Below are positions 37,570 to 45,064 of a DNA stretch of 64,000 nt, piece after piece; position 1 is the stretch's first letter, and every line of letters starts with the position of its first letter. The DNA is from an uncultured bacterium. Lineage in GTDB: Bacteria; Bacillota; Clostridia; Oscillospirales; Oscillospiraceae. The stretch lies in assembly GCA_947073515.1 (NCBI GenBank), contig CAMTMC010000003.1, positions 1 to 64,000 on the forward strand, written 5' to 3'. Both the position numbers and the translations under genes were made by a program. Below the pieces are notes generated by a model. It saw only the letters and a program-made list of their open reading frames with translations. It did not search any database and was not told the DNA's origin.

Positions 37570-38004
37570 TTACAGGTTGTCCATCTCCTCCTGGTCCACG
37601 GTCTTGATGTCCCGCTCAGCCAGGGCGGCGGCGGCTTTCCCGTTGTCCGCCACTCGGAAGATCATGTAGGCGTGCTCCACGTCCTTGCCCCCCAGGAAGG
37701 CGTACATATATTCCACGTTCACCTGGGCGTCGGTGAGCACCTGGAGGACCTTGTTCAGCCCGCCGGGGACGTCGGGGATGGCCACCCCCAGCACCGGGGT
37801 GATGTTGTGGACATACCCGGCTTCCCGCAGGACGGCGGAGGCCCTGTCCGTGTCGTCCACAATCAGGCGGGCGATGCCGAAATCGCTGGTCTCCGCCACG
37901 CTCAGCGCCCGCAGGTCCACCTCATTCCGGGCCAGCACGCCGGTCATGGCGTACAGGGCGCCGGGTTTATTTTCCAGAAAAATAGAGATCTGCTTGATGT
38001 TCAT
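37570..38004 (-). CDS. ACT-domain protein associated with arylacetate-CoA ligase
   Basis: 144 residues made of two ACT domains (about 1-70 and 71-144): NIKQISIFLENKPGALYAMT starts the first and VEYMYAFLGGKDVEHAYMIF lies in the second. ACT domains bind amino acids, so this probably senses an aromatic amino acid and regulates PaaK or its pathway; the pairing with paaK is recurrent in clostridia. ATG 38004 lies seven bases after GGGAGG. 18 bases downstream of paaK, same operon. Confidence 0.88.
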   Translation of the reverse strand: MNIKQISIFLENKPGALYAMTGVLARNEVDLRALSVAETSDFGIARLIVDDTDRASAVLREAGYVHNITPVLGVAIPDVPGGLNKVLQVLTDAQVNVEYMYAFLGGKDVEHAYMIFRVADNGKAAAALAERDIKTVDQEEMDNL

Positions 38005-38022: not shown

Positions 38023-39324
38023 TTAAATCTTCCGCCTGTCAATGACCCGGACGGCCTTGCCCTCGCTGCGGACAATGGACTTGGGGGCCACCAGGGTCAC
38101 CTTGGCCGCCAGGCCCAGCATGGCCCGCAGGCCGTCCACCAGCTCCTTCTGCCGGCGGGAGATCTCGCCCATGTTGTCGGTGAACATCTCGGGGGTCATC
38201 TCCACTTGGACGTCCAGGGTGTCGGTGTTCCGCACCCGGTCCACGATCATCTGGTAGTTGGCGGGGTAGCCGGCGTTGAGGAGGACGGTCTCAATCTGGG
38301 ACGGGAAGACGTTCACCCCCCGGATGATGAGCATGTCATCGGTACGGCCCCTGGGCTTGGCCATACGGACGTGGGTGCGGCCACAGGGGCACTTCTCCCG
38401 GCTGAGGACGCAGATGTCCCGGGTGCGGTAGCGCAGGAGGGGGAAGGCCTCCTTGGTGATGGCGGTGAACACCAGCTCTCCCTGGCTGCCCTCCGGGAGG
38501 ACCTCGCCGGTGTCGGGGTCGATGATCTCGGCGATGAAGTGGTCCTCGTTGATGTGCATCCCGCTCTGGGCGGAGCACTCGAAGGCCACGCCGGGGCCGG
38601 ACAGCTCCGTCAGGCCGTAGATGTCGTAGGCCTTGATGCCCAGGGTGTTCTGGATGTCCCGGCGCATCTCCTCCGACCAGGCCTCGGCGCCGAAGATGCC
38701 CGCCTTCAGGGGGATCTGGTCGGGGGTGAGGCCCATCTCCTTCATGGTCTCGCCGATGTAGGCGGCGTAGGAGGGGGTGCAGCACAGGATGGTGGCGTTC
38801 AGATCCTGGATGAACATGATCTGCCGCTCGGTGTTGCCCGAGGAGGTGGGGATGGTGAGGCAGCCCACCTTGTGGCTTCCGCCGTTGAGGCCCGGGCCGC
38901 CGGTGAACAGGCCGTAGCCGTAGGACACCTGGCACACGTCCTCATCGGTGCCCCCGGCGGCCACGATGGCCCGGGCGCAGCAGTCCTCCCACAGGTCGAT
39001 ATCGTGCTGGGTGTAGAAGGCCACCACCCGCTTGCCCGTGGTGCCGGAGGTGGACTGGATTCGCACGCAGTCCTTCACCGGCCGGGCCATCAGGCCGTAG
39101 GGGTAGGCCTCCCGCAGGTCGGCCTTGGTGACGAAGGGCAGTTTATGCAGGTCGTCCACGCCCTTGATGTCAGCGGGCGTCAACCCCTTCTCCTCCATCT
39201 TTTTCCGGTAATAGGGCACGTGGTCCCACACGTTCTTGACCTGGTTCACCAGGCGCTCGTCCTGCCAGGCCCTGATCTGCTCCTGAGACGCGCGCTCGAT
39301 CTCAGGCTGATAATATCGCTCCAT
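38023..39324 (-). CDS. paaK: Phenylacetate-CoA ligase
   Basis: Activates phenylacetate (or indoleacetate) to the CoA thioester with ATP. 433 residues: STSGTTGKRVV is the AMP-binding P-loop, IFGAEAWSEEM and YDIYGLTELSGPG the adenylate core, YRTRDIC the A-domain hinge, and VFPSQIETVLL lies in the C-terminal lid. ATG 39324 has AAAGGA upstream. With iorAB (separated here by a terminator) it can interconvert arylpyruvate and arylacetate. The neighbouring Phe T-box argues for a biosynthetic direction. Confidence 0.93.
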   Translation of the reverse strand: MERYYQPEIERASQEQIRAWQDERLVNQVKNVWDHVPYYRKKMEEKGLTPADIKGVDDLHKLPFVTKADLREAYPYGLMARPVKDCVRIQSTSGTTGKRVVAFYTQHDIDLWEDCCARAIVAAGGTDEDVCQVSYGYGLFTGGPGLNGGSHKVGCLTIPTSSGNTERQIMFIQDLNATILCCTPSYAAYIGETMKEMGLTPDQIPLKAGIFGAEAWSEEMRRDIQNTLGIKAYDIYGLTELSGPGVAFECSAQSGMHINEDHFIAEIIDPDTGEVLPEGSQGELVFTAITKEAFPLLRYRTRDICVLSREKCPCGRTHVRMAKPRGRTDDMLIIRGVNVFPSQIETVLLNAGYPANYQMIVDRVRNTDTLDVQVEMTPEMFTDNMGEISRRQKELVDGLRAMLGLAAKVTLVAPKSIVRSEGKAVRVIDRRKI

Positions 39325-39448: not shown

Positions 39449-39484
39449 AAAAAAGAGCGGGGCGGCGGCAGAGGCCGCCCCTGT
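39449..39484 (-). terminator. Terminator after iorB
   Basis: AGGGGCGGC and GCCGCCCCGCTC form a stem followed by six T on the minus strand, separating iorAB from paaK. The AT-rich 39330-39448 region then holds room for a paaK promoter. Confidence 0.7.
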
Positions 39485-39496
39485 GCTCCTATTCTG

Positions 39497-40069
39497 TTAC
39501 GCCTTTTTCCCCAGCTGGAAGGCCTTTTTGTTCAGCTCCAAAAACTTGGGGGGAACCATGGCCTCCAGGGACTTCTGCCAGGCCTCGTCAGGCAGGTCGA
39601 AGTAATGGGACAGCCGGCCCATGAGGACGATGTTCACCGCCTTGCTGCTGCCGGCCTCCTCGGCCAGCTTCAGGCAGTCCAGGGCGTCCACCTTGGCCCC
39701 GGCGGCACGCATCTTCTCCACCAGGTTTTCCGGGTACCGGGCCGCCCCGGTGATGACGGGCATGGGGTCGATCTGCTGGGTGGAGGTGACGATCTGGCCG
39801 TCGGGCTTGAGGTAGCTCAGCCACCGGGCGGCCTCCAGCAGCTCAAAGGAGACGATGTAGTCGGCCTCCCCCTTGTCAATAACGGGGGAGTTTACCTTGT
39901 CGCCATAGCGGACGTAAGTGACCACCGAGCCGCCCCGCTGGGACATGCCGTGGACCTCGGACACCTTGACATCATGGCCCTGCTCCATCAGCAGATGGCC
40001 CAGCAGCTTGCTGGCCAGCAGGGAGCCCTGGCCCCCCACGCCCACGATCATAATATTTTTGGTTTCCAC
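39497..40069 (-). CDS. iorB: Indolepyruvate ferredoxin oxidoreductase, beta subunit
   Basis: 190 residues, the gamma-like subunit domain of 2-oxoacid:ferredoxin oxidoreductases: NIMIVGVGGQGSLLASKLLG at the start, HGMSQRGGSVVTYVRYG in the middle. It works with IorA to oxidise arylpyruvates to aryl-CoA, or to run the reaction in reverse with reduced ferredoxin. GTG start 40069 with GGAGGG six bases upstream, two bases after the iorA stop. Confidence 0.94.
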   Translation of the reverse strand: METKNIMIVGVGGQGSLLASKLLGHLLMEQGHDVKVSEVHGMSQRGGSVVTYVRYGDKVNSPVIDKGEADYIVSFELLEAARWLSYLKPDGQIVTSTQQIDPMPVITGAARYPENLVEKMRAAGAKVDALDCLKLAEEAGSSKAVNIVLMGRLSHYFDLPDEAWQKSLEAMVPPKFLELNKKAFQLGKKA

Positions 40070-40071
40070 GA

Positions 40072-41817
40072 TTAGCCCTCCTTTTTGGTGCTGGCAAAGG
40101 CCTTCACGGCGCACAGCTGCTGGCACACGCCGCAGCCCACGCACAGGGTGGCGTCCACCCGGGCCTTGCCCTCCTTCATGGAGATGGCGGGACAGCCGAT
40201 CTTCATGCAGCTCTTACAGCCCACGCACTTGCCGGTGTCCACCGTAAGAGGGGCGCTGTGCTTGACATACTTCAGCAGGGCGCAGGGCCGGCGGCTGATG
40301 ATCACCGAGGGCTCGGCGGCGGCCAGCTCCTCCTTCAGGACGGTGTCGCAGGCTTTCAGATCGTAGGGGTCCACCACCCGCACCCGGTTGAAGCCCATGG
40401 CCTTACACAGGGACTCCAGGTCGATTTTCCCGGCGGGGTCACCCTTGATGTTGTAGCCCGTGGTGGGGTTCTGCTGGTGGCCGGTCATGCCGGTGATGGA
40501 GTTATCCAGGATGATGACGGTGGAATTGGACCGGTTATAGGCGATGTTGGCCAGGCCGGTCATGCCCGAATGCATAAAGGTGGAGTCACCGATGACGGCC
40601 ACGGTTTTCCCCTCGGTCTCCGCCCCGCCGGCCTTATTGAAGCCGTGGATGGCGGAGATGGAGCCGCCCATGCACAGGGTCATGTCCATGGCGGACAGGG
40701 GGGCGACGGCGCCCAGGGTGTAGCAGCCGATATCGCCCAGCACGGTACACTTGTTCTTGCTCAGGGTGTAGAACAGCCCTCTGTGGGGACAGCCGGCGCA
40801 CATGACCGGGGGACGGTTGGGGATCTCGTCCTCCAAGGCCCGGCCCATGGGGAAGGTATGGGTCAGGCGGTCGGCCACCAGATTCTGGGAGAACTCGCCC
40901 AGCCGGGGGAAGTCGTACTCCCCGGAGGGCTTCAGCCCCAGGGCGGCGCAGTAGTCGGAGATGATGGGATCCAGCTCCTCCACCACCACCAGCTCCTCCA
41001 CCGACTTGGCGAAGTCTATGAGCTTCTGGTCGGGCAGGGGCCAGGCCATCCCCAGCTTTAAAACGGGGTATGTATCGCCGCAGACCTCTTTCACGTACTG
41101 GTAGGAGGTGGAGGAGGTGATGATGCCGAGCTTGTGATCCCTTCCCTCCTCCACCCGGTTGATGGGGGCGGTCTCCGCCCACCGCTGAAGCTTCTGGGTG
41201 CGCTCCTCCACGAAGGGGTGGCGGCGGATGGCGTTGGCGGGCATCATCACATATTTGGCGATGTTCTTTTCATAGGGCTTCCCGTCCCGCTCGACCCGCT
41301 CCGAGGTCCTGACAATGGACTGGGAGTGGGCGATCCGGGTACACATCTTCAAAAGGACGGGGGTGTCGAACTCCTCGCTGAGCTCGTAGGCCAGCTTGGC
41401 GAACTCCAGGGCCTCGGCGGAGTCGGAGGGCTCCAGCATGGGCACCTTGGCGGCCCGGGCGTAGTGGCGGGAGTCCTGCTCGTTCTGGGAGGAGTGCATC
41501 CCCGGGTCGTCGGCCACGCCGATGACCATGCCGGCGTTGACCCCGGTGTAGGCCATGGTAAACAGGGGGTCGGCGGCCACGTTCAATCCCACGTGCTTCA
41601 TGGCGCAGAAGGAACGCTTGCCCGCCAGGCAGGCCCCGAAGGCGGTCTCCATAGCGACCTTCTCGTTGGGGGCCCACTCGCAGTAGATCTCGTCGTACTT
41701 GGCGGCCTCCTCGGTGATCTCGGTACTGGGGGTGCCGGGGTAGCTGGAGATCACAGCGCAGCCGGCCTCATACAGTCCTCTGGCAACGGCGGCGTTGCCC
41801 AGCATCAGCTCTCTCAT
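40072..41817 (-). CDS. iorA: Indolepyruvate ferredoxin oxidoreductase, alpha subunit
   Basis: 581 residues, thiamine-diphosphate enzyme. The N-terminal domain has SSYPGTPSTEITE; the TPP-binding part GDSTFMHSGMTGLAN and ILDNSITGMTGHQQNP; the C-terminus carries two 4Fe-4S motifs (CVGCKSCMKIGCP and CVGCGVCQQLC). Acts on indolepyruvate, phenylpyruvate and hydroxyphenylpyruvate in the family. ATG 41817 has GGGAAGGA upstream. It follows a TrpR-like gene and a T-box leader, giving amino-acid-responsive control. Confidence 0.96.
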   Translation of the reverse strand: MRELMLGNAAVARGLYEAGCAVISSYPGTPSTEITEEAAKYDEIYCEWAPNEKVAMETAFGACLAGKRSFCAMKHVGLNVAADPLFTMAYTGVNAGMVIGVADDPGMHSSQNEQDSRHYARAAKVPMLEPSDSAEALEFAKLAYELSEEFDTPVLLKMCTRIAHSQSIVRTSERVERDGKPYEKNIAKYVMMPANAIRRHPFVEERTQKLQRWAETAPINRVEEGRDHKLGIITSSTSYQYVKEVCGDTYPVLKLGMAWPLPDQKLIDFAKSVEELVVVEELDPIISDYCAALGLKPSGEYDFPRLGEFSQNLVADRLTHTFPMGRALEDEIPNRPPVMCAGCPHRGLFYTLSKNKCTVLGDIGCYTLGAVAPLSAMDMTLCMGGSISAIHGFNKAGGAETEGKTVAVIGDSTFMHSGMTGLANIAYNRSNSTVIILDNSITGMTGHQQNPTTGYNIKGDPAGKIDLESLCKAMGFNRVRVVDPYDLKACDTVLKEELAAAEPSVIISRRPCALLKYVKHSAPLTVDTGKCVGCKSCMKIGCPAISMKEGKARVDATLCVGCGVCQQLCAVKAFASTKKEG

Positions 41818-41873: not shown

Positions 41874-42191
41874 TCACTGGGGTTCCCCGGGCTTCTCGTG
41901 CAGGCCCTGGCGCTGAATGACCTCCCGCATGACGCCGCCGGCGCCGTTGTCCAGCATGGACCGCCGGACCCGGCTGATGGTGGCGCTGGAGGCGCCGGTC
42001 TTCTCCAGAATGTCCAGATAGACCAGGCCCTGCTGGAGGTACACCGCCACATCAAACCGCTGCTCCAAGGAGCGCAGCTCTGTGGGGGTGCACAGGTCGT
42101 CGAAAAATTTGCAGCACTCGTCCAGGTCCTTCAGCCGCAGGATGGTTTCGTACAGGGCCGTACTCCGGGCCCGATTTTCTACTTTGGCCAT
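41874..42191 (-). CDS. TrpR-like YerC/YecD family DNA-binding protein
   Basis: 105 residues, all-helical. LYETILRLKDLDECCKFFDD, CTPTELRSLEQRFDVA and TGASSATISRVRRSM (helix-turn-helix) are typical of YerC/YecD, relatives of the Trp repressor. It may sense an aromatic amino acid. RBS AAAGGAG is seven bases before the ATG at 42191. It is the first gene behind the T-box leader, in line with iorA and iorB; the gap to iorA is 56 bases. Confidence 0.9.
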   Translation of the reverse strand: MAKVENRARSTALYETILRLKDLDECCKFFDDLCTPTELRSLEQRFDVAVYLQQGLVYLDILEKTGASSATISRVRRSMLDNGAGGVMREVIQRQGLHEKPGEPQ

Positions 42192-42289
42192 TTAACCACT
42201 CCTTTTTTCTCTTCCTGGTGAGACTTACGCAAGGATAGTGTAGCACACAAAAGTGTAAAAGTAAAGGGAGCGGCCCCAGAAAAGACCTG

Positions 42290-42583
42290 GAAAAACAAAA
42301 AACCCCTAACGGCTCATCTGCCGTTAGAGGACGGGAAAGGCTCTCCCGTGGTACCACCTCTGTTCGCCGGGCCCTTGCGGGACACGGCCTCATAGGGCGT
42401 CTGACAACGCCCGGCCCCTGTAACGGGAGGCCCCGTTCCGCTCTACTCGGTCCTTAAAAACCTTTCCTCGGACAGCTCAGGAGATGAAATTTCAAGCGCG
42501 CAGCCATGCCCCTCGCACCAACCGGGAACTCTCTGAAACAGCTGAAGCCGCGCCCTACTTTGTCTCCGTCCACGCCTTTGTTA
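42290..42583 (-). promoter_or_regulatory. T-box leader, specifier reads phenylalanine
   Basis: On the minus strand: Stem I base GGAGA...UCUCC, the AGUA S-turn, distal GGUUGGUGCGA, then the specifier side GAAAUUUCA (plus 42485-42493). In the glyQS arrangement (GAA, spacer, codon) this gives UUU or UUC, both Phe. The T-box AGGTGGTACCACGGG (42346-42360) has the bulge UGGU that pairs with tRNA ending ACCA, as tRNA-Phe does. Terminator CTAACGGC...GCCGTTAG with a T tract at ~42296-42328. The leader precedes the trpR-like gene and iorAB. The 580-bp gap between genes is filled by this leader and its promoter. Confidence 0.88.
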
Positions 42584-42589
42584 TTCCGC

Positions 42590-42617
42590 ATTATACACCC
42601 CTCAGCCCATTTGTCAA
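42590..42617 (-). promoter_or_regulatory. Promoter of the T-box operon
   Basis: Minus strand TTGACA (42612-42617), 16 bases, TATAAT (42590-42595): consensus hexamers. Confidence 0.85.
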
Positions 42618-43429: not shown

Positions 43430-45064
43430 ATGCCTATCACCGATCTGCTGGAGCGCAACAGCAAACTGTACGGCGACGAGACCGCCCTGGTGGAAATCAA
43501 CCCGGAGATCCAGGAGGAGCAGCGGGTGACCTGGAAGGAGTACGCCCTGATCCAGCCCACCGCCACCGCCCCCTACCGCCGGGAGATCACCTGGTCCGTC
43601 TTTGACGAGAAGGCCAACCGGGTGGCCAACATGCTGCTGGGCCGGGGCATCCGCAAGGGGCAGAAGGTGGCCATCCTGCTGATGAACTGCCTGGAGTGGC
43701 TGCCCATCTATTTCGGGATTTTGAAGGCCGGGGCCATCGCCGTGCCGCTGAATTTCCGGTACACCTCCGGCGAGATCGACTACTGCCTGCGGCTGGCGGA
43801 CGCCGACGTGCTGTTTTTCGGGCCGGAGTTCATCGGCCGGGTGGAGGAGATCGTGCCCAAGATCTCCCACCAGATGCTCCTGCTGTTTGTGGGGGAGGGC
43901 TCCCCCTCCTTCGCTGAGGACTACCTGCGGGCCACCGCCAACTGCTCCAGCCAGGCCCCCAAGGTGCTGGTGGATGACGAGGACGAGGGGGCCATCTACT
44001 ACTCCTCCGGCACCACCGGCTTCCCCAAGGCCATTTTGCTCAAGCACGCCGCCCTCCTCCAGTCCGCCCGGATGGAGGCCATCCACCACGAGACCACCCA
44101 CGAGGACGTGTTCCTGTGCATCCCGCCCCTGTACCACACCGGGGCGAAAATGCACTGGTTTGGCTCCCTGTTCACCGGGAGCAAGGCCGTGCTGCTGAAG
44201 GGGAGCTCCCCCCAGGCCATCTTCCAGGCCGCCAGCCAGGAGCGGTGTACCATCGTCTGGCTGCTGGTGCCCTGGTGCCAGGACATCCTGGCCGCCCTGG
44301 ACCGGGGGGACTTGAACCTTGACAGCTACCATTTAGACCAGTGGCGGCTGATGCACATCGGCGCCCAGCCGGTGCCCCCCTCCCTCATCAAGCACTGGAT
44401 GGATTACTTCCCCCGCCACAAGTATGACACCAACTACGGCCTGTCCGAGTCCACCGGCCCGGGCTGCGTCCACCTGGGGATGGACCACATCCACAAGGTG
44501 GGGGCCATCGGCGTGCCCGGCTACGGCTGGAAGGTGAAAATTGTGGACGAGGGAAATGTCCCCGTCCCCCAGGGCGAGGTGGGGGAGCTGTGCGTGAAGG
44601 GCCCCGGCGTCATGGTGTGCTACTACCACAACCAGGAGGCTACCGGCGAGGTGCTGGAAAACGGCTGGCTCCACACCGGGGACATGGCCCGGCAGGACGG
44701 GGAGGGCTTCATCTTCCTGGTGGACCGGAAAAAGGACGTGATCATCTCCGGCGGCGAGAACCTGTACCCGGTACAGATTGAGGACTTCCTGTCCGCCTAC
44801 CCCAAGATCCACGACGTGGCGGTCATCGGCCTGCCCGACCAGCGGCTGGGGGAGATTGCCGCCGCCATCGTCCAGATCAAGGAGGGCATGTCCTGCACTG
44901 AGAGCGAGATCAACCAGTTCTGTATGGACCTGCCCCGGTACAAGCGGCCCCGGAAGATCATCTTCGCTGACGTCCCCCGGAACCCCACCGGCAAGATAGA
45001 AAAGCCCAAGCTGCGGGAGAAGTACTGCGGCGTCCGGCTGGTGGAGGCCCAGAACCAGGGCTGA
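43430..45064 (+). CDS. Class I adenylate-forming acyl-CoA synthetase
   Basis: 544 residues. Core motifs: YYSSGTTGFPKAILL (AMP P-loop, ~184-198), YGLSESTGPG, WLHTGDMARQDGEGF, and the lid with VDRKKDVIISGGENLYP and PRNPTGKIEK (catalytic lysine). Activates a carboxylic acid to its CoA thioester; the LCFA/o-succinylbenzoate-type group fits, but chain length or aromatic preference cannot be read. Residues ~33-50 form an insertion (EEQRVTWKEYALIQPTAT) before the usual start of the fold. RBS AAAGGAA. Monocistronic. Confidence 0.9.
   Translation: MPITDLLERNSKLYGDETALVEINPEIQEEQRVTWKEYALIQPTATAPYRREITWSVFDEKANRVANMLLGRGIRKGQKVAILLMNCLEWLPIYFGILKAGAIAVPLNFRYTSGEIDYCLRLADADVLFFGPEFIGRVEEIVPKISHQMLLLFVGEGSPSFAEDYLRATANCSSQAPKVLVDDEDEGAIYYSSGTTGFPKAILLKHAALLQSARMEAIHHETTHEDVFLCIPPLYHTGAKMHWFGSLFTGSKAVLLKGSSPQAIFQAASQERCTIVWLLVPWCQDILAALDRGDLNLDSYHLDQWRLMHIGAQPVPPSLIKHWMDYFPRHKYDTNYGLSESTGPGCVHLGMDHIHKVGAIGVPGYGWKVKIVDEGNVPVPQGEVGELCVKGPGVMVCYYHNQEATGEVLENGWLHTGDMARQDGEGFIFLVDRKKDVIISGGENLYPVQIEDFLSAYPKIHDVAVIGLPDQRLGEIAAAIVQIKEGMSCTESEINQFCMDLPRYKRPRKIIFADVPRNPTGKIEKPKLREKYCGVRLVEAQNQG

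Follow-up and report, generated by a model that had tools for sequence, protein, structure and literature searches.

T-box leaders switch on the genes behind them when the cognate tRNA is uncharged, and the formation of phenylalanine from phenylacetic acid is said to have been described in rumen anaerobes by Allison in 1965 (a reference listed in PMC7356843). The use of aryl acids is known from Methanococcus maripaludis (PMC4162585); AMP-forming ligases favour acyl-CoA synthesis, and an indolepyruvate:ferredoxin oxidoreductase (IOR) encoded beside one may be biosynthetic, as has been proposed in a methanogen and, because of the AMP-forming ligase there, suspected in Bacteroides (PMC13285125). 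IOR is commonly regarded as an enzyme that degrades aromatic amino acids. From sequence alone, the direction of an IOR, synthesis or breakdown of these amino acids, cannot be told, and a phenylalanine-specific (Phe) T-box in front of its genes is an independent genetic statement of direction. Such a leader occupies positions 42617..42290 (minus strand) of the window, the whole 64,000-nucleotide stretch of DNA analysed here, which comes from the draft assembly (94.4% complete) of a gut-type Oscillospiraceae bacterium. It precedes yerC-iorA-iorB, a unit lying entirely on the leader's strand. The Phe T-box probably turns on this operon under phenylalanine shortage, with IorAB making phenylpyruvate for phenylalanine from phenylacetyl-CoA; the probability of this reading is put at about 0.77.

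The leader is a complete transcriptional T-box with a promoter (P1), Stem I, an antiterminator carrying the UGGU bulge and a terminator (Table 1). The T-box sequence, the UGGU bulge and the terminator are present as the preliminary description of 42290..42617 had stated, and the end at 42290 fits the T-run of the terminator. The Rfam model RF00230 is matched over its full length (model positions 1-219) with 88.1 bits and an E-value of 1.9e-19 (Infernal). Because this score falls below the Rfam gathering score of 93, a curation cut-off and not a biological feature, routine Rfam annotation misses the leader: a scan of the whole window at gathering lists no RNA, and the T-box is visible only in E-value mode. 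The source assembly holds 12 T-boxes at E < 0.001, six of them above the gathering score. Both a UGGN bulge and an antiterminator mutually exclusive with the terminator are present in the window leader, and the discriminator base of tRNA-Phe, which we take to be A73, fits the UGGU bulge, as opposed to UGGA, which this genome has in its Gly and Thr leaders.

Conservation across the genus excludes a chance origin of the leader. A Stem I model built from 12 leaders gives 24 matches in 64 same-genus genomes (one per genome, at 91-123 bits, with 12 of the 24 having been in the model), the next match scoring 48.7; the search used the stricter filter settings that apply to sets of more than 40 genomes, and model R1, which rests on an RNAalifold-type consensus, served for detection only. 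The leader stands before yerC on the same strand in 23 of the 24 loci, the remaining locus (G083) ending before yerC, and all 23 have, at a similar distance, a P1-type TTGACA/TATAAT pair with no more than one mismatch in either hexamer, as well as a T-run of at least six bases at core +48 to +62. Furthermore, among 12 sequences, double changes that keep the pairing occur in one or more sequences at 29 of the 78 predicted pairs; the lower Stem I helix likewise varies in compensated fashion, with one pair being G-C in six sequences and A-U in the other six. An RNAalifold pairing within the specifier loop (columns 30-33 with 102-105) was taken as the usual failure to model loop E and was set aside.

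The Phe specificity of the leader is solid. The specifier was read by a rule calibrated on nine other T-boxes of the source genome, in which a single base separates the end of the codon from the 3' arm of the lower helix of Stem I. In these nine the rule yields the expected codon for ileS (AUC), leuA (CUG), valS (GUG), ilvB (CUC), a trpX-like gene (UGG), glyS (GGC), tyrS (UAC), pheS (UUC) and thrS (ACC). The calibration targets were recognised by eye from translations, valS, tyrS and pheS not being the first long frame after their leaders; two further T-boxes read UGC (L011) and GCC (L012), with no recognisable target in their stretches. The rule gives UUC in the ior leader, and all 24 orthologs of this leader retain UUC, including where the flanking bases change (20 parsed by script; G060, G063, G073 and G083 read directly). 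Given the loops GAAGGUUCA (G078 and G084) and GAAAGUUCC (G032), which keep UUC, neither UUU nor AUU nor UCA can serve throughout, whereas UUC can, and UUU is unlikely because the base before UUC is G in these three genomes. The preliminary description had left the specifier as UUU or UUC and had suggested both a covariance-model reading and a search for Phe T-boxes at homologous loci; the Phe assignment stands after both, and of the two codons UUC is retained.

In the proposed mechanism, the UUC specifier would pair with the GAA anticodon of uncharged tRNA-Phe and the UGGU bulge with the ACCA end of this tRNA; the antiterminator would form and transcription from P1 would enter yerC-iorA-iorB, while charged tRNA-Phe would leave the terminator standing. 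Phenylacetate would be activated to phenylacetyl-CoA by a paaK-type AMP-forming ligase, IorAB, working reductively, would join phenylacetyl-CoA with CO2 and reduced ferredoxin to give phenylpyruvate, and transamination would yield phenylalanine. The tRNA response, direction, substrate and ligase in this scheme are deduced, and the direction is the expected one because a Phe T-box would be senseless on an enzyme that consumes phenylpyruvate and fitting on one that makes it. Such an anabolic role of IOR, from phenylacetyl-CoA through phenylpyruvate to phenylalanine, appears well supported.

The missing pathway genes and their association within the genus, like the leader, codon, operon and conservation, are read directly from the sequence. 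The source assembly has no match to PF00800 (prephenate dehydratase, PDT), whereas all 36 same-genus genomes in that search have one; looking for this enzyme was a check that the preliminary description had proposed. Nor does the assembly match chorismate synthase (aroC), PDH_N (prephenate dehydrogenase), aroB (dehydroquinate synthase) or trpA, and its matches to aroA (EPSP synthase) are only MurA-like (101.9 bits against a cut-off of 287). Chorismate synthase was not found in 11 of the 64 same-genus genomes, and the T-box occurs in 10 of these 11 compared with 14 of the 53 genomes that have the enzyme (Fisher p 1.1e-4). At a completeness of at least 75% the proportions are 10/10 and 12/49 (p 1e-5), and the association holds at thresholds of 80% and 85% (p 5e-4 and 6e-4). 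In a tree of YerC+IorA sequences from 63 genomes (with G083 left out for too little sequence), the combined labels need 17 changes, and a Pagel-type fit favours the dependent over the independent model (likelihood ratio 16.7, 4 degrees of freedom, p 0.002); the fit relies on a script of our own and on this single tree, which is that of the linked operon, and since single rates are poorly determined only the overall test was used. The claim that iorAB is anabolic and salvages phenylacetate into phenylalanine is thus supported by the missing PDT match and by the link between T-box and chorismate synthase loss. The broader proposal, that several lineages of the genus have dropped the shikimate pathway and live on phenylacetate from their neighbours, turned into phenylalanine by a CO2-fixing ferredoxin enzyme under tRNA-Phe control, is somewhat better than an even bet.

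Among the alternatives, the one that survives best is that IorAB salvages phenylacetate, 4-hydroxyphenylacetate and indoleacetate for all three aromatic amino acids, with only phenylalanine being sensed. The source assembly also lacks trpA, PDH_N and chorismate synthase matches, as this alternative would lead one to expect; against it, in this genome the substrate-binding protein of an ABC transporter is preceded by a UGG T-box, and an EamA-like permease together with tyrS by a UAC T-box (genes identified by eye), so that tryptophan and tyrosine seem to be imported and phenylalanine to be served by the ior operon and pheS. A second UUC T-box of this genome (L009) lies about 1 kb before pheS. 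Salvage of several acids is a real contender, though one given less than an even chance, and it widens rather than contradicts the reading of phenylalanine salvage.

It is also conceivable that the Phe T-box is real and IorAB nevertheless mainly ferments aromatic amino acids through a second promoter and YerC, the T-box being a minor starvation layer. Between the T-box terminator and yerC lies a promoter-like block, P2, that the preliminary description had missed, as it had the identity of its trpR-like gene as yerC, whose family has been described as HisR: the YerC of B. subtilis was identified as the histidine repressor HisR (PMC9413887). P2 occurs in relaxed form in 62 of the 63 same-genus loci with yerC, with or without a T-box, G008 being the only exception (39/63 under the strict pattern, the relaxation having been made after the sequences were viewed), and the block is seen by eye in G083. 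Some of its letters recur in the HisR motif cacTTTAnnnnnnTAAAgtg, a 20-bp palindrome that P2 resembles in the first half and not in the second (by eye). P2 may be a T-box-independent promoter, perhaps under YerC, that would give the operon basal or differently regulated expression, and transcripts started there would escape the T-box; YerC presumably controls P2, which is a possible autoregulation site of this TrpR/HisR-family protein, and the P1-T-box module was presumably either added before P2 or repeatedly lost. The wide conservation of P2 and the 40 of 64 genomes with an ior operon and no T-box fit a fermentative role, as do the fermentative IOR of Pyrococcus, the reported part of IOR in phenylacetate formation in Bacteroides (both cited in PMC13285125) and an enzyme that is reversible in principle. 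However, to induce a phenylalanine-consuming enzyme under phenylalanine scarcity would be senseless, yet 24 genomes retain the leader; the T-box goes with the loss of chorismate synthase; and C. difficile has an iorAB operon of a different layout, which includes genes for an aminotransferase and a butyrate kinase and is given as SigL-dependent (PMC7438776). A mainly fermentative IorAB is therefore considered improbable.

Several points weigh against the anabolic reading. The absence of aroB and trpA is non-specific and only weak evidence, aroB having been detected in one of seven genomes searched and trpA in two of nine, and G004, a genome with chorismate synthase, likewise shows neither. At a completeness of at least 90% only two genomes without chorismate synthase are left (p 0.056), and independent pairs (about three agree, none disagree, the others are equal) are too few for significance. 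Chorismate synthase is kept in 14 T-box genomes, and G001, G025 and G031 keep pheA (G001 also tyrA) though aroC and aroA were not found; for these reasons salvage cannot be only a substitute for a lost pathway. In 39 of the 64 genomes, moreover, yerC-iorA is present, the T-box is absent and chorismate synthase is retained, and G069 lacks both chorismate synthase and T-box. The paaK gene forms a unit of its own: an intrinsic terminator separates it from iorB, its start lies about 125 bases past that terminator, and paaK-ACT was therefore treated as a second unit, so that of the operon proposed in the preliminary description (trpR-like-iorA-iorB, perhaps with paaK-ACT) the first three genes hold and the last two are not obviously included. 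Finally, incompleteness alone would cost about 7.5 of the 64 genomes any one gene, compared with the 11 observed, and part of these 11 losses may thus be gaps.

That the apparent shikimate loss is an assembly gap, and the T-box association chance or shared ancestry, would be in keeping with this modest excess and with the nature of the material, draft assemblies with clustered aro genes in which one missing contig removes many. Gaps do not explain, however, the link with the T-box, nor the junction in G001, where tyrA is followed directly by pheA with flanks present, whereas G007 has aroB-aroA-aroC between these two; the pheA of G025 is isolated, being flanked on either side by other genes. 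Furthermore, a genuine aroA match is lacking in five of 11 genomes tested, the same five that lack chorismate synthase, and the association persists when a completeness of as much as 85% is required, and also in the tree-aware test. An explanation by gaps is accordingly rated as unlikely, slightly more so than the fermentative one. The last alternative, a specifier of AUU (Ile) or UCA (Ser), both of which are present in the loop GAAAUUUCA, can be dismissed almost entirely, as no triplet other than UUC keeps the one-base distance to the helix in all 24 orthologs and as TBDB gives priority to bases 2-4 from the bulge end, with UUC in 99% of Phe T-boxes (PMC7778990).

Some aromatic pathway genes of the genus deserve mention in their own right. 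The pheA of G025 (L156, 826-1995) and G031 (L157, 8519-9655) and the tyrA-pheA of G001 (L148, 5383-7476) are intact in genomes where neither chorismate synthase nor EPSP synthase was found, a chorismate mutase thus being kept with no evident supply of chorismate. In G014, which lacks chorismate synthase, the PF00800 match is a stand-alone, atypical PDT-like protein of 191 residues beside a PDH-like one (L147, 9652-11165). A T-box-positive genome has its chorismate synthase match in two pieces with an in-frame TGA, perhaps a decaying gene (G066:C13:67828-68858), and in G004 (C203:18848-19789 and C40) chorismate synthase is present, the match to EPSP synthase is split, and aroB and trpA have no match.

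Within the genus iorA is present in all 64 genomes, some copies being cut by contig ends. Orthologous leaders score at or above the RF00230 gathering score in L045 (102.5), G001 and G023 (100.2 each) and G025 (93.4), and below it in G019 (92.9), G014 (91.8), G020 (82) and G017 (67.6). The core of the G020 leader (L131, 2314-2568) reads GGTGGTAACACG instead of ACC and still reaches 82 bits. Rfam in E-value mode on 27 supposedly T-box-free same-genus loci and three T-box loci gained one T-box (G023) and otherwise none, and when three ior leaders (those of the window, G025 and G014) were compared by BLASTN with the loci of all 40 genomes that lack the T-box, no remnant of it appeared at E 0.05. 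In a wider set of 80 ior loci, at least four of them same-genus (L043, L044, L045, which is G073, and L046), a 12-base T-box pattern with at most two mismatches lies upstream of iorA in eight (L045, L048, L053, L062, L076, L085, L087 and L107). Rfam, applied to four of these, finds a T-box in L045, L085 (1.7 kb upstream) and L076 (3.4 kb upstream) and none in L053; the other four are poor matches judged by pattern alone. The specifiers of L085 and L076 were read as UAC (Tyr). From these loci, the best 80 of at least 595 and several with little upstream sequence (below 150 bases in L049, L098 and L118), the Phe T-box before ior looks confined to the genus, on evidence that is incomplete. Nor is it a general companion of PDT loss, since PDT-lacking genomes of other families (G039, G041, G050, G054 and G056) show no T-box core, by pattern only, in the 1.5-2.5 kb upstream of ior.

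Table 1. Coordinates of the leader, the operon and neighbouring features in the window.
Feature	Position	Strand	Remarks
Promoter P1, TTGACA-16-TATAAT	42590..42617	minus	exact hexamers
T-box leader RNA, Stem I to antiterminator	42324..42581	minus	RF00230 match; covariation in 12 orthologs
Specifier codon UUC (Phe)	42486..42488	minus	one base before Stem I helix UCUCC/GGAGA
Antiterminator with T-box sequence GGUGGUACC	42326..42361	minus	UGGU would pair with ACCA end of uncharged tRNA-Phe
Intrinsic terminator overlapping 3' arm of antiterminator	42290..42330	minus	CCTCTAACGGC...GCCGTTAGGGG + T6
P2 block TTTACTTTTACACTTTTGTGTGCTACACT, TTTACT-17-TACACT with CACTTT	42237..42265	minus	promoter-like; candidate YerC operator, putative function
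yerC, TrpR-family regulator	41874..42191	minus	TIGR02531, 87.3 bits (cut-off 42.2)
iorA, indolepyruvate:ferredoxin oxidoreductase alpha	40072..41817	minus	TIGR03336, 710.1 bits (cut-off 650.9); start at first ATG of frame
iorB, beta subunit	39497..40069	minus	NF005325, 274.8 bits (cut-off 230); putative start
Intrinsic terminator ending yerC-iorA-iorB	39449..39481	minus	GGGGCGGC ... GCCGCCCC + T-rich run just after iorB stop; by eye
paaK-like arylacetate-CoA ligase	38023..39324	minus	TIGR02155, 506.5 bits (below cut-off 646.3); PF14535
ACT-domain-pair protein beside paaK	37570..38004	minus	PF19571
Divergent AMP-forming acyl-CoA ligase	43430..45064	plus	PF00501, 247 bits

In addition to the matches in Table 1, YerC matches PF01371 (70.8 bits against 27), while IorB scores 180.4 bits with TIGR03334 (IOR_beta), below that model's cut-off of 205.8. 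The ligase is named only PaaK-like because the TIGR02155 equivalog cut-off is not reached; the paaK-like frame of L045 is found behind another gene, some 1.4 kb past iorB. The divergent ligase keeps its place in all four T-box loci laid out (L013, L031, L036 and L045). A helix-turn-helix and zinc-ribbon gene (PF01381, PF12674; 42771..43214) lies between T-box and divergent ligase in the window and was not seen there in these four loci. Downstream of the ior operon, a fluoride riboswitch is found on the minus strand in L031 (4617-4690) and L045 (7096-7169), at 46.4 bits against a gathering score of 34.

If the broader proposal, of lineages that live on phenylacetate from their neighbours, is true, ior genes in such gut genomes would mark consumers and not producers of phenylacetate, and the T-box would be a readable marker of direction. 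The same doubt about direction has been raised for Bacteroides from the neighbouring ligase (PMC13285125, 2026), and the window locus adds regulatory and phyletic evidence in Oscillospiraceae. The literature searched, from which subscription papers were mostly absent, held no paper joining a T-box with indolepyruvate (oxidoreductase) or with phenylalanine and phenylacetate, a prior listing in TBDB being possible; the text of a T-box survey (PMC2494555) contains neither "indolepyruvate" nor "phenylacet-". The T-box, IOR and the aryl acid route are each known (the chemistry since the 1960s), and their combination, a T-box with an unexpected and informative target, is in no paper searched.

Compared with other transcriptional T-boxes of the Phe class, for example those before pheST, the window leader shares Stem I, UUC, UGGU and the antiterminator/terminator pair; it differs in its target, an arylpyruvate:ferredoxin oxidoreductase operon, in a score below the Rfam gathering score and in a spacing of two bases instead of one from GAA to the codon. 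Its YerC belongs to the same family (TIGR02531) as HisR, and P2 has CACTTT-like letters of the HisR motif (PMC9413887), but yerC here precedes iorAB and not his genes. Geobacter likewise has iorAB with paaK and a conserved leader element, listed under amino acid biosynthesis (tryptophan), whereas the T-box named in the available text of that source precedes leuA, not ior (PMC2700814). Lastly, the aryl acid route via IOR of Methanococcus maripaludis and Methanothermobacter resembles the window locus in enzyme family, in the proposed direction and in a nearby AMP-forming ligase (PMC4162585, PMC13285125), from which the window locus is set apart as a bacterial case with tRNA-Phe control, linked in its genus to the loss of chorismate synthase.
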